Part shown: positions 56,120-60,849 of the stretch, piece by piece
Numbering within the stretch: position 1 is the stretch's first letter
Layout of the letters: the number at the start of each line of letters is the position of its first letter
Assembly: GCA_027452205.1 (NCBI GenBank)
Contig: DAIDGV010000003.1
Span: forward strand, 62,001 to 126,000
Length of the DNA: 64,000 nucleotides
Direction: 5' to 3'
Source of the DNA: a candidate division FCPU426 bacterium
Lineage (GTDB): Bacteria; Oederibacteriota; Muellerivitia; Muellerivitales; Muellerivitaceae
Translations under genes and position numbers: made by a program
Notes under the pieces: generated by a model
Seen by the model: the letters and a program-made list of their open reading frames with translations, nothing else
The model's database searches: none
What the model was told of the DNA's origin: nothing

Positions 56120-56815
56120 ATGTCGAACGCTTTCGAGATCCCCCACATGACCGAAAAATCCCAACTTCAGAAAGCTCTCGAATGGGCCAAGAAGCACCAA
56201 GAAATGGTCTTCGTGGGTGGTTTGGTGATTGTTCTGCTGGCCGTTGGTATCCCTTATTATTTGAACAGCCAAAAGGAAGCCAATCAAAAGGCTCAAGATG
56301 TGTTAAGTCTGGCCCAGTATTACCAACACGCTCAAGTGGACCCAAAGAACGGTCCCTTCAAGAGCGAAGACGAGAAGAACCAACAAGCCTTACAGACCTT
56401 CCAAAAGGCGATGAACGATTATGCTGGTACGCCAACCGCCAAGCTGGCCCGCTTTTATGCCGCCAAGGACCAATTACTGCTTCGCCAGTTTGCCCAAGCC
56501 TATTCAAATTTTGATGTGGCCAGCCAAGAGTTGAAGGGAACTGTGCTGGGAGATGAAGCTTACTTGGGTAAGTTGGTGTCCTTGGAGTACGACAGCAAGA
56601 TCGATCAGGCTACTGTTTTCGCTGAAAGCTTCCTGAAGAACAACCCAAACAGCCCTATTTATCCAGAAATCGCACTTAATTTATCAGCGCTTTACGCTAA
56701 GAACGACGCGACCAAAACCAAGGCAGTCGACCAACTAAAAGCCATCGCCAAGAATTACGCTGAGACGACCTGGGCCAAAGAGGCCGAGCGACGTTTGGAT
56801 AAGTTGAAGTCCTAG
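56120..56815 (+). CDS. YfgM-like membrane-anchored TPR protein
   Basis: A 231-residue protein: cytoplasmic N-terminus with KALEWAKKHQEM, one membrane helix (about 32-52, VFVGGLVIVLLAVGIPYYL), then a periplasmic TPR-like domain. The pattern is that of the YfgM/PF09976 family, whose E. coli member associates with the SecYEG translocon and periplasmic chaperones. The start at 56120 has TTGGAGAA upstream and is preferred to an in-frame ATG at 56057 located inside the tRNA terminator. Its stop and that of the convergent aminotransferase share the four bases CTAG. Confidence 0.85.
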   Translation: MSNAFEIPHMTEKSQLQKALEWAKKHQEMVFVGGLVIVLLAVGIPYYLNSQKEANQKAQDVLSLAQYYQHAQVDPKNGPFKSEDEKNQQALQTFQKAMNDYAGTPTAKLARFYAAKDQLLLRQFAQAYSNFDVASQELKGTVLGDEAYLGKLVSLEYDSKIDQATVFAESFLKNNPNSPIYPEIALNLSALYAKNDATKTKAVDQLKAIAKNYAETTWAKEAERRLDKLKS

Positions 56816-57963
56816 TTCAGCAGTTTTTTCAATCGGTTCGCCCCGGTCCGGAAGATCTCCAACTGGGGCAAAAGACTGACCACCAAGAAGCATCCCTCTG
56901 CCAGATCATAAAATCCGCCAGGCTGAATGTTCACTTGATGCTTTTGAATGGCTTCCAGTGCTAGTGTTTCAGCATTGGCACCTTCACTTAATACCTCTAA
57001 TAAAGCATACCAACCGCCTTGTGTAGGCCACACTTTGACATTTTCAGACCCAGCAAACAGGCTTTCGAGGACCCTGTGGTTCTTAAAAATCCGGTCCAAT
57101 ATCTGTTTTTGGATGTTTGGCGCGAAGGCCAACAACTTTTCAAGCCCCACTTGCACCGGCGTATTGACCGATAAATAGGTATCGGCGATCAGTTCCAGTC
57201 GGTTGCGGCATTCGGCCAACTGCCTTTCTGGACCCGAAAGCTCGATCCAGGACAACTTCAATTGCGGCAGCCCCAGACTTTTCGAGAGACCTCCCAACCG
57301 AAAAGATAGGATCGAAGGGCTGGGAGCCTGCTTGGTGGCAGGCTCATATAGGTAATCCGAAAAGACTTCATCGATGATATAGGCTAGGTTCCGTTCTTCG
57401 CAAAGGGACCAAAGTGCTTGGCGATCTGCTCCGCTTAGCGTTGCCCCGGTTGGGTTGTTAGGGTCTACAACAATGACCCCCTTTGTTCGGTGTGTCACGG
57501 CTAACTTGAGAGCTGGCAGATCCAAAGGCCAACCAGGCAATGGGTGGGCGGGATAGGGGATCAATTCCAGGGCTTCCAAGTGCAGTAGGTGATCTAGCAA
57601 GGGATAACCGGGGGTCGGCGCCAAGAAGGCGTCGCCCGGGTCTCCCAAAAGCTTGAAGAGATAGGAATAGGCTTCGCTGGTGCTAGCGGTCAAAACCAAG
57701 TTTTCCGGGTCTATCTGGTGGCCCCGGATGTTCAAATAGTCCGCCAGGGTCCTCCGGGCCGAAAGGGAACCCAAGGCGTGCGGGTCATACCGAAGGGCTT
57801 CTGGATGGCTCAGGTCCGACAGAAGGTCCGCAGGATACGTAAAACCGCAACGGGTCGGGTTGGACTCGGTCAGGTCGATAAAGTCTGTGCCCCGAACCTG
57901 TTCAAGCGCTCTTGCAATTGGGTTAGGGGATAGGTCGTCAGGAGTTCGGCTCGAAAAAATCAT
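56812..57963 (-). CDS. Class I/II PLP-dependent aminotransferase
   Basis: A 383-residue fold-type I aminotransferase. Visible: the N-terminal IDLTESNPTRCGF, GSLSARRTLADYL, TASTSEAYSYLFKLL, PTPGYPLLDHL, VDPNNPTGATLS, IIDEVFSDYL and the PLP-lysine segment GGLSKSLGLPQLKLSWI. It resembles aspartate/aromatic-type enzymes; the amino donor cannot be read from sequence. First of seven consecutive leftward genes. Two copies of ACTTTAAG lie in and just upstream of its start region (57964-57991). Confidence 0.9.
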   Translation of the reverse strand: MIFSSRTPDDLSPNPIARALEQVRGTDFIDLTESNPTRCGFTYPADLLSDLSHPEALRYDPHALGSLSARRTLADYLNIRGHQIDPENLVLTASTSEAYSYLFKLLGDPGDAFLAPTPGYPLLDHLLHLEALELIPYPAHPLPGWPLDLPALKLAVTHRTKGVIVVDPNNPTGATLSGADRQALWSLCEERNLAYIIDEVFSDYLYEPATKQAPSPSILSFRLGGLSKSLGLPQLKLSWIELSGPERQLAECRNRLELIADTYLSVNTPVQVGLEKLLAFAPNIQKQILDRIFKNHRVLESLFAGSENVKVWPTQGGWYALLEVLSEGANAETLALEAIQKHQVNIQPGGFYDLAEGCFLVVSLLPQLEIFRTGANRLKKLLN

Positions 57964-58481: not shown

Positions 58482-59513
58482 TTAATCATTTCGAGTCCGG
58501 GCCCGATGGCGCTTCAAGACCGCCTCTATACCGAATAAGGCGCCTAGGTTCAAGGCGTTCACCGCTTGGCCAGCCCCAAAAGCCCGGCCGTGAGCCTGAC
58601 GGGCCTTTGTCGAAGCTAATTTGACATAGTTCTCGCTGACCATAATGCTGGAATGGCCCATTAGATCCCGGATCTCATAGACGCTCGCGCCTGATTCGGC
58701 CAACTGGGTGCCAAAACTGTGCCGCAGAACATGCACAGTCAGCTCGTTCGGGTTCTCGAACTTGGCCCATTGTGCGGCTTTTTTGACCCAGTTTTCTAGA
58801 TACCTAATATGACTTGGTTTTTGCCTATCCCTCGGACTCGGAAAAAGATAAGGACCGTCGGCTTTACAAGCCTTTAAATACTGGTCTAGAAGCTGCTTTA
58901 AAGCTTCGGTCATAGGTACGGATCGCTCTTTGTCGCCCTTGCCGATAACCGTAACCAGACCTTGGTCCACATCCAGATCACGTACTTTCAAATTGGCAAT
59001 CTCTGAGACTCGCAAGCCGCAATGGAAGCCAAGCAGCACCGTTAGACAAATCTTTTGACCCTCCAAATCACTTGTTTGAAGGCCCCTTACCAAAGCCTCG
59101 CGGTCTTTGGGTGCCAAGGGACGGGGATTCCGCTGCGGGCTTCGAACCGCCAAGTTATGAAAGACCGCCGTTGGGTCATTGGTGATATGCCGGACCGAGG
59201 CCAGATATTTGTAAAATGATCGGGTGGAGGCAAGGATTCGTTTCAATGTGCGAGTCGAATAGGCGCTGCGGGGCTTACCGGCAGGTGTTTGACCAGGTTT
59301 TGCCAACTGGCCGACAAACCGCGCCAAGTCTTGGGACTGGGCCGTGTGAGGTGCAAGTCCGGTTTTATCCAAAAAGAGCTTTAAGACACGCAAGTCTTGG
59401 TGGTAATTCGATTGTGTATGGTGCGATTTGCACAAACCTAAAAAGCTTTTGTAAGGCTCAACTTCCAGAAGATTTTCCGAATTGGAATGAGTCTTATTCA
59501 ATTTATATTTCAT
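58482..59513 (-). CDS. XerC/XerD-like tyrosine recombinase
   Basis: A 343-residue tyrosine recombinase. The N-terminal SAM-like core-binding domain (about 15-120) is followed by the catalytic domain with all key residues: Arg168 (GLRVSEIANL), Lys192 (GKGDKERSVPM), His261 and Arg264 (HVLRHSFGT), His287 (LMGHSS) and Tyr296 (SENYVKL). It is somewhat longer than XerC/XerD (about 300) and ends with a basic tail. Seen next to it: a dif-like site overlapping its own start, so it is the likely chromosome-dimer resolvase acting as a single-recombinase system, as with XerS or XerH. The start is uncertain: the frame is open to 59618, and no ribosome-binding site precedes the ATG at 59513. An integrase of a small mobile element is the alternative. 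Confidence 0.85.
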   Translation of the reverse strand: MKYKLNKTHSNSENLLEVEPYKSFLGLCKSHHTQSNYHQDLRVLKLFLDKTGLAPHTAQSQDLARFVGQLAKPGQTPAGKPRSAYSTRTLKRILASTRSFYKYLASVRHITNDPTAVFHNLAVRSPQRNPRPLAPKDREALVRGLQTSDLEGQKICLTVLLGFHCGLRVSEIANLKVRDLDVDQGLVTVIGKGDKERSVPMTEALKQLLDQYLKACKADGPYLFPSPRDRQKPSHIRYLENWVKKAAQWAKFENPNELTVHVLRHSFGTQLAESGASVYEIRDLMGHSSIMVSENYVKLASTKARQAHGRAFGAGQAVNALNLGALFGIEAVLKRHRARTRND

Positions 59514-59534
59514 ATAACTACAATTATATGAAAT
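59507..59534. other. dif: Candidate dif site (Xer recombination site)
   Basis: 28 bp: left arm ATTTCATATAA (59507-59517), 6-bp centre CTACAA (59518-59523), right arm TTATATGAAAT (59524-59534). The arms are perfect inverted repeats, extending five more bases each side (59502-59539). The 11-6-11 design is exactly that of bacterial dif sites. The right arm matches the E. coli XerD arm TTATGTTAAAT at 9 of 11 positions, including the inner TTAT, and the left arm matches the Bacillus subtilis left arm ACTTCCTAGAA at 8 of 11. It overlaps the first codon of the Xer gene. Confidence 0.8.
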
Positions 59535-59551
59535 ATAAAAACGATAAACAA
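59523..59551 (-). promoter_or_regulatory. Possible xer promoter embedded in the dif-like site
   Basis: Read on the - strand: TTGTTT (plus 59551-59546), 17-base spacer, perfect TATAAT (59528-59523). The -10 lies in the right dif arm and centre. Only nine bases separate it from the ATG at 59513, so transcripts would begin within a few bases of the start codon, a leaderless mRNA. This explains the missing ribosome-binding site but is inferred. Confidence 0.5.
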
Positions 59552-59557
59552 GTATGT

Positions 59558-59926
59558 TTAAACCTTGCGAACCCCGGCATGAACTTCGCAATGGCAATTT
59601 TGACAAAGCAAAATGCACTTATCTAATTCTTTTTGGATAGCTTCCCACTTTCTCGAGTGATTACCGGCAAAATTAAACGACTTTATCTGCGGGTCAAGAT
59701 GATGAAAGGTTAAAGCACGATTACAACGCGCATAGCCACAAAGCTGACAACGCCCGCCTTTATATTCGATCATCTTGTCTTTCCTTGAGAAGCGACCGTG
59801 ATTTGCGTGACAGGAATTACATTTTTTCTTGTTGTGACTACCTACAGACCGGCCATTTTCATATATGTATTTGTATTTCTTTCCGCAAACCGTACAAACG
59901 CAGTCCAATTCTTTTCTTTTGCCCAT
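59558..59926 (-). CDS. Small HNH nuclease-like zinc protein
   Basis: A 122-residue protein with four Cys pairs: CTVCGKKY near the start, KCNSCHAN, then RCQLCGYARC and a C-terminal CILLCQNCHCEVHAG. The HNH core is readable as TFHHLDPQ (about 74-81) followed by LLCQNCHCEVH. This is the layout of small HNH endonucleases, often borne by phages and mobile elements, although chromosomal relatives exist. GAGAGGAG precedes the ATG at a good distance. It lies immediately upstream of the xer gene and dif-like site, and the region is AT-rich. Whether it is functionally linked to Xer is unknown. Confidence 0.8.
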   Translation of the reverse strand: MGKRKELDCVCTVCGKKYKYIYENGRSVGSHNKKKCNSCHANHGRFSRKDKMIEYKGGRCQLCGYARCNRALTFHHLDPQIKSFNFAGNHSRKWEAIQKELDKCILLCQNCHCEVHAGVRKV

Positions 59927-60067: not shown

Positions 60068-60802
60068 CTAACTTGCTAAAAACTCTTCGAGCAACTTTTG
60101 GAACTTTTCTGGAGCTTCGATCGGCACCAAATGTCCAACTTTGTCTATCAAGACCAACTGGCTGCCTGGGATAGCTTCGTGCATGGCCACGGACTCGTTA
60201 GTTGGTATCAAGGCATCCTCTTTACCCGCTACGATGATCGTTGGGGCCTGAATGCCCGCCAGGATGCTCGTTTGGTTGTCCCTGTTGGCCATAGCCCTCT
60301 GGGCCAAAGCCACGCCTGCGGGCGAAGCTTGAAAAATCCACTTGGATACTTGGCCGCTAACATCTGGTTTATCAGCTAAAGTTGTCTTACCTAAGAGACC
60401 CGGGATCATGGCCTCGGGCAGATGGCCAATGCCGGCTTTCTCGACGAACTCAGCCATATTCAGCCGATTCTGACGACCTTCGGCTTTGTCCGCGCCCGCG
60501 CGGGTCGAAATAAGCACCAGTTTTTCAACCCGGTTCGGGAATTGTCTTAAGAACTCAAAAGCCCAATAACCGCCCATGGAAATGCCACCCAGAACAATGG
60601 GTTTTGCGCCAAATTGTTGGACTAAATGCTGATTCAAGTCTTTGGCGGCTTGAGCCAAAGTGTAGCCCGAAGGCTTTGCTGCGGTACCGCCAAAACCTGG
60701 AAAATCAGGTGTTACGACCTGATAGCCCTTAATGGCCTTCAACTGACCCCAAAACAACCTCGATAAAGGGAACGGATGCAACAAAACGATCGTTTTTTCC
60801 AC
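60068..60802 (-). CDS. Alpha/beta-hydrolase
   Basis: A 244-residue serine hydrolase of the alpha/beta fold. The oxyanion segment LLHPFPLSRLFW, the nucleophile elbow GGISMGGYWAF (Ser), the acid in GKEDALIPT (Asp) and the catalytic His in DKVGHLVPIEAPEKF form a complete triad. It looks like the esterase/BioH/meta-cleavage-hydrolase group; the substrate is unknown. The GTG at 60802 is preferred because AAGGAG is then six bases upstream; the TTG one codon earlier is possible. An ACTTTAA inverted repeat lies about 50-65 bases upstream. Confidence 0.88.
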   Translation of the reverse strand: MEKTIVLLHPFPLSRLFWGQLKAIKGYQVVTPDFPGFGGTAAKPSGYTLAQAAKDLNQHLVQQFGAKPIVLGGISMGGYWAFEFLRQFPNRVEKLVLISTRAGADKAEGRQNRLNMAEFVEKAGIGHLPEAMIPGLLGKTTLADKPDVSGQVSKWIFQASPAGVALAQRAMANRDNQTSILAGIQAPTIIVAGKEDALIPTNESVAMHEAIPGSQLVLIDKVGHLVPIEAPEKFQKLLEEFLAS

Positions 60803-60849
60803 CAAAAACTCCTTAAAAACTTAGTTTTATTTGATTCTGAACAAGTGAA

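Follow-up and report, generated by a model that had tools for sequence, protein, structure and literature searches.

Only a few lineages are known to resolve chromosome dimers with a single recombinase. Described single-Xer systems include XerS/difSL (PMC5357621), XerH/difH (PMC2731167), archaeal XerA (PMC2958812) and Legionella XerL (PMC9765430), and the site adjoins the recombinase gene for XerS, in most XerH species and in the Sulfolobales (PMC5357621, PMC2731167, PMC2958812). In the XerH system, a small arm asymmetry orders cleavage, and alteration of the bases flanking the cleavage sites of the centre had no effect (PMC5241119).

Here, a 28-bp dif-like site overlapping the start of a tyrosine recombinase gene was analysed in the window, i.e., the whole 64,000-nucleotide stretch of DNA under study. 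Sequence comparison indicated, with a probability that we put at about 0.88, that the site is the dif of a new single-recombinase lineage and that the adjacent gene is the only chromosomal Xer. On this reading, the bacterial order concerned joins XerS, XerH, XerL and archaeal XerA as another Xer/dif lineage with one recombinase, and it adds a divergent Xer to those known. The features of the locus are listed below.

56812 to 57963, minus strand: gene for a class I/II aminotransferase, just downstream of xer
58482 to 59513, minus strand: gene for the single Xer tyrosine recombinase, 343 aa; its ATG (59513-59511) lies within a dif arm
59502 to 59517, no strand: left arm as read on the plus strand, 16 bp, perfect; the inner 11 bp are the conserved unit
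59507 to 59534, no strand: dif-like core site, a perfect 11-6-11 inverted repeat
59518 to 59523, no strand: 6-bp centre; reads CTACAA, or TTGTAG in coding-strand orientation
59523 to 59528, minus strand: predicted -10 hexamer TATAAT of the xer promoter, made of the dif arm and the first centre base
59524 to 59539, no strand: right arm as read on the plus strand, 16 bp, perfect
59546 to 59551, minus strand: predicted -35 hexamer TTGTTT, 17 bp from the -10; with 3/6 bases matching, the weakest of nine
59558 to 59926, minus strand: small HNH-like gene, rich in cysteine, that directly precedes the site on its upstream side
60068 to 60805, minus strand: flanking alpha/beta hydrolase gene

Comparison with described systems

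The locus resembles XerH/difH of Campylobacter and Helicobacter in its one recombinase, near-symmetric arms and 6-bp centre (PMC2731167, PMC5241119), and there too the site is found at the terminus and often beside the gene. The difH centre CTATAA (PMC2731167) equals that of one member of the order (G006) read on the other strand, possibly through convergence. However, the arms are GAAAA/TTTTC in difH and TATAA/TTATA here, and XerH (PDB 5jjv) was a remote match to the window Xer (1.6e-11, compared with 3.6e-32 for XerD), which sets the locus outside the XerH group. Reliance on the centre, if true here, would be another difference from XerH, which is ordered by the arms. With XerS/difSL of streptococci and lactococci the locus shares the arrangement of a single recombinase and an adjacent site as one module (PMC5357621), but difSL is a 31-bp site with an 11-bp instead of a 6-bp centre, and the window Xer reached 92 bits with the NCBIfam XerS model, far from its cut-off of 267.

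Archaeal XerA/dif likewise combines a single Xer with an 11-6-11 site, the arms of which have few or no mismatches in the Thermococcales (PMC2958812). Archaea, however, are without FtsK, and the position of xerA relative to dif varies in the Thermococcales (PMC2958812), whereas the order has kept the FtsK gamma domain and holds site and gene together; the archaeal XerA equivalog model (NF040815) gave 135.5 bits against a cut-off of 220. In the Legionellales, too, a single Xer replaced XerCD within a lineage and the site is a palindrome near the terminus, but the dif of Legionella is located in a noncoding region, and the genes on either side of it vary (PMC9765430). The comparison with XerL covered this published description of the site and its setting. 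The canonical XerC/XerD/dif system has the same inner ATAA/TTAT arm ends, 28-bp length, terminus position and FtsK gamma domain, but it employs two recombinases instead of one, and the window Xer scored far below the NCBIfam cut-offs for XerC (158 versus 335 bits) and XerD (149 versus 330 bits). Two orthologs behaved like the window Xer against the NCBIfam models. Cre/loxP of phage P1 operates with one recombinase, perfectly symmetric 13-bp arms and an asymmetric 8-bp spacer, and without FtsK control; the likeness to the present locus lies in the one recombinase, the symmetric arms and the asymmetric spacer that gives the site its direction.

The site and its recombinase

The site at 59507-59534 reads ATTTCATATAA-CTACAA-TTATATGAAAT and is, exactly as originally predicted, a perfect 11-6-11 inverted repeat, with full complementarity of the arms over 16 bp (59502-59517 and 59524-59539). 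Two 11-bp inverted arms around a 6-bp centre thus make up a 28-bp site that is present once per chromosome: a search for a second copy, with up to three mismatches allowed, returned this single match in the 2,891,598-bp (2.89-Mb) assembly of the window genome (G000). Six perfect 11-6-11 repeats were counted in the 340-kb contig, for 0.1 expected under a first-order Markov model, and two repeats had 16-bp arms. The other five of the six are G+C-richer and stem-loop-like, and the dif-like site is the only A+T-rich one.

The encoded protein matched Phage_integrase (PF00589) and a SAM-like N-terminal domain. Its predicted complete catalytic set was found as R168, K192, H261, R264, H287 and Y296, all six invariant in six orthologs as in a conserved tyrosine recombinase, and the gene start was also placed correctly, with the ATG inside the arm. 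The protein extends 47 residues beyond the catalytic tyrosine, with L333 and R337 conserved in this stretch; E. coli XerD has about 19 residues after the catalytic tyrosine. An XerD-type 'RQ' follows the tyrosine of the window Xer but is missing from some orthologs, and it was therefore not counted in favour of FtsK contact. The closest solved structures by sequence were XerD (1a0p) and an archaeal XerA-like protein (4a8e), and a search of genome contigs returned only Xers of other phyla, 26-33% identical to the window Xer. In a tree built with relatives from the phylum and E. coli XerC and XerD, the single Xers grouped together with full support, apart from the groups of XerC and XerD and on a long stem (4.1 changes per column); the exact sister is unsure because of the long branches.

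In the neighbourhood of the gene, the gene-strand switch falls at the far end of the aminotransferase gene, at about 56812-56815. The HNH-like gene upstream of the site had a weak Pfam match below the cut-off. In G006 the same place is occupied by a gene that shares the 3' end motif, and it was not seen there in most other relatives.

Conservation in the order and exchange for canonical dif

The locus was compared among nine genomes of the order including the window genome, which were also the whole sample of the class, and a further 30 genomes, drawn from the phylum's other families, served for comparison. One orthologous Xer was identified in each of the nine genomes, with 54-76% identity to the window Xer across the other eight; the ortholog of G003 was split over two contigs. 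In 9/9 genomes the palindrome lay over the xer start or no more than about 50 bp upstream of it, and its common form on the coding strand was AACTTCTATAA-TTACAG-TTATAGAAGTT. The comparison with relatives that the original prediction called for thus returned one Xer with one site at its start throughout the order. The 16-bp core TATAATTNYAGTTATA occurred exactly once per genome in 9/9 order genomes and in 0/30 genomes elsewhere. The canonical dif pattern, searched with at most one mismatch, showed the opposite distribution (0/9 order genomes versus 21/30 genomes of other families), and many genomes of other families contained two Xer-like genes. Neither the canonical sequence nor two dedicated recombinases, as in XerC/XerD with canonical dif, were found in the order, and the site itself had one copy. 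Judged from these sequences, the single-Xer system looks like a clean replacement of XerCD/dif that took place no later than the base of the order. Since canonical dif was replaced within one phylum, the loss of a two-recombinase system is open to comparative study.

Among the other families, variants of canonical dif were specific to certain families, namely ATAAGATATATTATGTTAA (f4 and f12) and ATAATGTATCTTATGTTAA (f8 and f11). Four genomes (G011, G012, G017 and G018, from families f5, f6 and f10) had neither the canonical pattern nor TATAATTNYAGTTATA; their Xer matches were mostly diverged, and other dif types may exist there.

Position near the probable terminus

Cumulative GC skew peaked near 100 kb in the contig of the window (C3 of G000), where the site is at 121.5 kb, ~20 kb off, and near 200 kb in contig C22 of G008, where it is at 205.6 kb. 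Plain GC skew was uninformative in G001 and G002, and because of this weakness the gene-strand switch was used to locate the terminus. Gene direction converges at the terminus and diverges at the origin. Plus-strand genes to the left and right of the site numbered 68/99 versus 19/165 in G000, 119/138 versus 0/57 in G008, 21/23 versus 3/55 in G001, 25/34 versus 8/48 in G002 and 13/15 versus 0/5 in G005, and the best change point of gene direction was two genes from the site in all five, although these switches are not independent because local gene order looks shared.

The sequence GGGNAGGG, which is the KOPS form of E. coli, was oriented toward the site 34:7 in G000, 11:1 in G008, and 25:7 and 31:22 in the other two of four contigs, a polarity confounded by the general G skew (GGGNNGGG 182:67 in G000). 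A de novo search by octamer skew found no shared octamer above the general G skew, and KOPS is for this reason regarded as supportive only. FtsK with a strong gamma domain (PF09397) was detected in 8/9 order genomes. A position at the replication terminus is supported in these multi-contig genomes: in G000 and G008 the site lies by a gene-strand switch with a GC skew peak near, and not far from the skew-defined terminus.

Arm symmetry and polarity of the centre

The arms matched at 11/11 positions in G000, G005, G006 and G008, at 10/11 in G001, G002 and G003, at 9/11 in G007 and at 7/11 in G004. Full symmetry is therefore not universal in the clade, and perfect 16-bp arms are peculiar to the window genome. 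The original prediction regarded symmetric arms as unusual, which was overstated given the precedents of loxP and Thermococcales dif. The inner five arm bases are invariant across the nine genomes, and the outer six differ among genomes, mostly in step on both sides. When right arms were redealt in shuffles that treated the related genomes as independent, the observed match of 45/54 outer bases compared with a shuffled value of 29.1 and was reached in 23/50000 shuffles. Such covariation would be expected if a single protein read both arms.

The centres were TTGTAG, TTATAG, TTTTAG, CTACAA and TTTCAG, together with TTACAG in four genomes, giving the consensus YTNNAR; the centre of G001 is reversed relative to the gene. 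In every site positions 2 and 5 form a T-A pair, whereas positions 1 and 6 are not complementary in any of the nine. Because the ends of the centre never pair, polarity would be retained in the centre even with perfect arms. The earlier idea that the centre is the source of asymmetry agrees with these sites, seven of which have arms of 11/11 or 10/11. Symmetric arms with an asymmetric centre may allow a test, within the Xer family, of whether strand exchange can be ordered by the centre alone, since arm differences are also present in XerCD and XerH.

A predicted promoter within the site

On the coding strand, the left arm and the first centre base together read TATAAT in eight genomes and TATAAC in G001. 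A -35-like hexamer was found 16-18 bp upstream of it in all nine genomes, being TTGTTT in G000 and TTGACT, TTCACA, TTGACA, TTCCCA, TTGACC, TTGAAC, TTTACA or TTGAAT in the others. The summed match of the best -35 at 16-18 bp was 41/54, compared with 23.1 in shuffles that likewise took related genomes as independent (reached in 0/5000), and by exact distance the signal was prominent at spacers 16 and 17. The ATG of G000 is about 9-10 nt beyond the predicted -10, so close that the transcript would be nearly leaderless. Further on, a stretch resembling a Shine-Dalgarno sequence is present in several orthologs.

Because the arm supplies the -10, dif-bound Xer should cover the promoter and shut off xer. 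Autorepression of this kind, through a promoter embedded in dif, may operate here with what we judge to be even odds. The broader proposal, in which dif is the core of the xer promoter, its occupancy meters the Xer dose and polarity is given by the centre alone, as in loxP, could in our estimate equally turn out right or wrong. The literature searched, which covered few subscription journals, contained no dif that forms the promoter of its xer gene, and this is not proof of absence. The overlap of dif and xer promoter suggests a reason for the lasting linkage of site and gene in single-Xer systems, in that the site may also be the switch of the gene, and XerH species offer a comparison. The difH of epsilonproteobacteria, ACTATAATTTTC (PMC2731167, Table 2), contains TATAAT, and a dif-embedded promoter may therefore exist there too.

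Proposed mechanism and alternative explanations

In the proposed mechanism, one Xer would bind both dif arms, FtsK, with its gamma domain retained, would gather the two sites of a chromosome dimer at the septum, and four copies of the same Xer would swap strands across the 6-bp centre to give monomers. As the arms are nearly identical, the YTNNAR centre would set the polarity of the site and would probably also order the exchange of strands, as at loxP. Xer bound to dif would also block xer transcription and keep its own amount low, because the arm bears the -10 hexamer and, in G000, the ATG as well.

The palindrome could instead be an operator only, by which the recombinase or another regulator controls xer while recombination occurs elsewhere. 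Its place at the gene start in 9/9 genomes and its overlap with the predicted promoter in nearly all orthologs are compatible with this, but an operator needs neither 11-6-11 spacing, nor an asymmetric conserved centre, a terminus-like position or the absence of canonical dif. Searches with the canonical pattern and the new core revealed no other candidate dif, and we regard an operator without recombination as unlikely. A different origin, as the integrase and attachment site of an integrated, IMEX-like mobile element, would account for the adjacency, since tyrosine recombinases usually adjoin att sites in such elements, and in G004 a YqaJ gene adjoins a distant relative of phage type. This origin is very unlikely, given one ortholog with a similar gene neighbourhood in every order genome, no second site copy and no viral contig with a relative in the search.

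A real dif that serves a hidden XerC/XerD-like pair, with the window Xer as one partner, appears more improbable again. Seven other tyrosine recombinases in G000 could supply a partner, and in G004 a distant second Xer coincides with the least symmetric arms; yet the ortholog is the sole PF00589 protein in G005 (94% complete) and G007 (84%), and symmetric arms leave no room for a second specificity. We give hardly any credence to a chance or structural inverted repeat that plays no part in recombination, for example a hairpin or terminator. The contig does hold other perfect 11-6-11 repeats, mostly G+C-rich and stem-loop-like, but the core at issue is kept in nine genomes whose orthologs go down to 53% identity, its arms covary, and it is located at gene starts and not at gene ends. 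The original reading of a single-recombinase dif adjoining its own gene is supported by conservation in nine genomes, and none of the three observations that would speak against it (several copies of the site, a canonical pair with a better dif, a location far from the terminus) was made. That reading did not include the exchange for canonical dif across the clade, the covariation of the arms, the FtsK gamma domain or the predicted promoter inside the site.

Other tyrosine recombinases

The description of the recombinase as 'single' held for the chromosomal Xer but not for tyrosine recombinases overall, as the window genome encodes eight PF00589 proteins, and most of the seven others look mobile. 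Searches of viral sequence collections returned neither a relative of the single Xer nor an exact match to the common form of the site. At G000:C19:76396-78795, three tyrosine recombinase genes, each different, stand in tandem on one strand and resemble a recombinase-in-trio mobile element. At G000:C3:319372-327811 there is a pair of tyrosine recombinase genes with a third, encoding 193 residues, nearby, and the 320-330 kb stretch of this contig has a G+C content of 0.453, compared with about 0.51. A distant relative of the single Xer (L237; G004:C20:4440-5333) showed 34% identity and 167 bits to the family profile. It adjoins a YqaJ-type viral recombinase gene and probably lies within a prophage, in the same genome that has the least symmetric dif arms (7/11).
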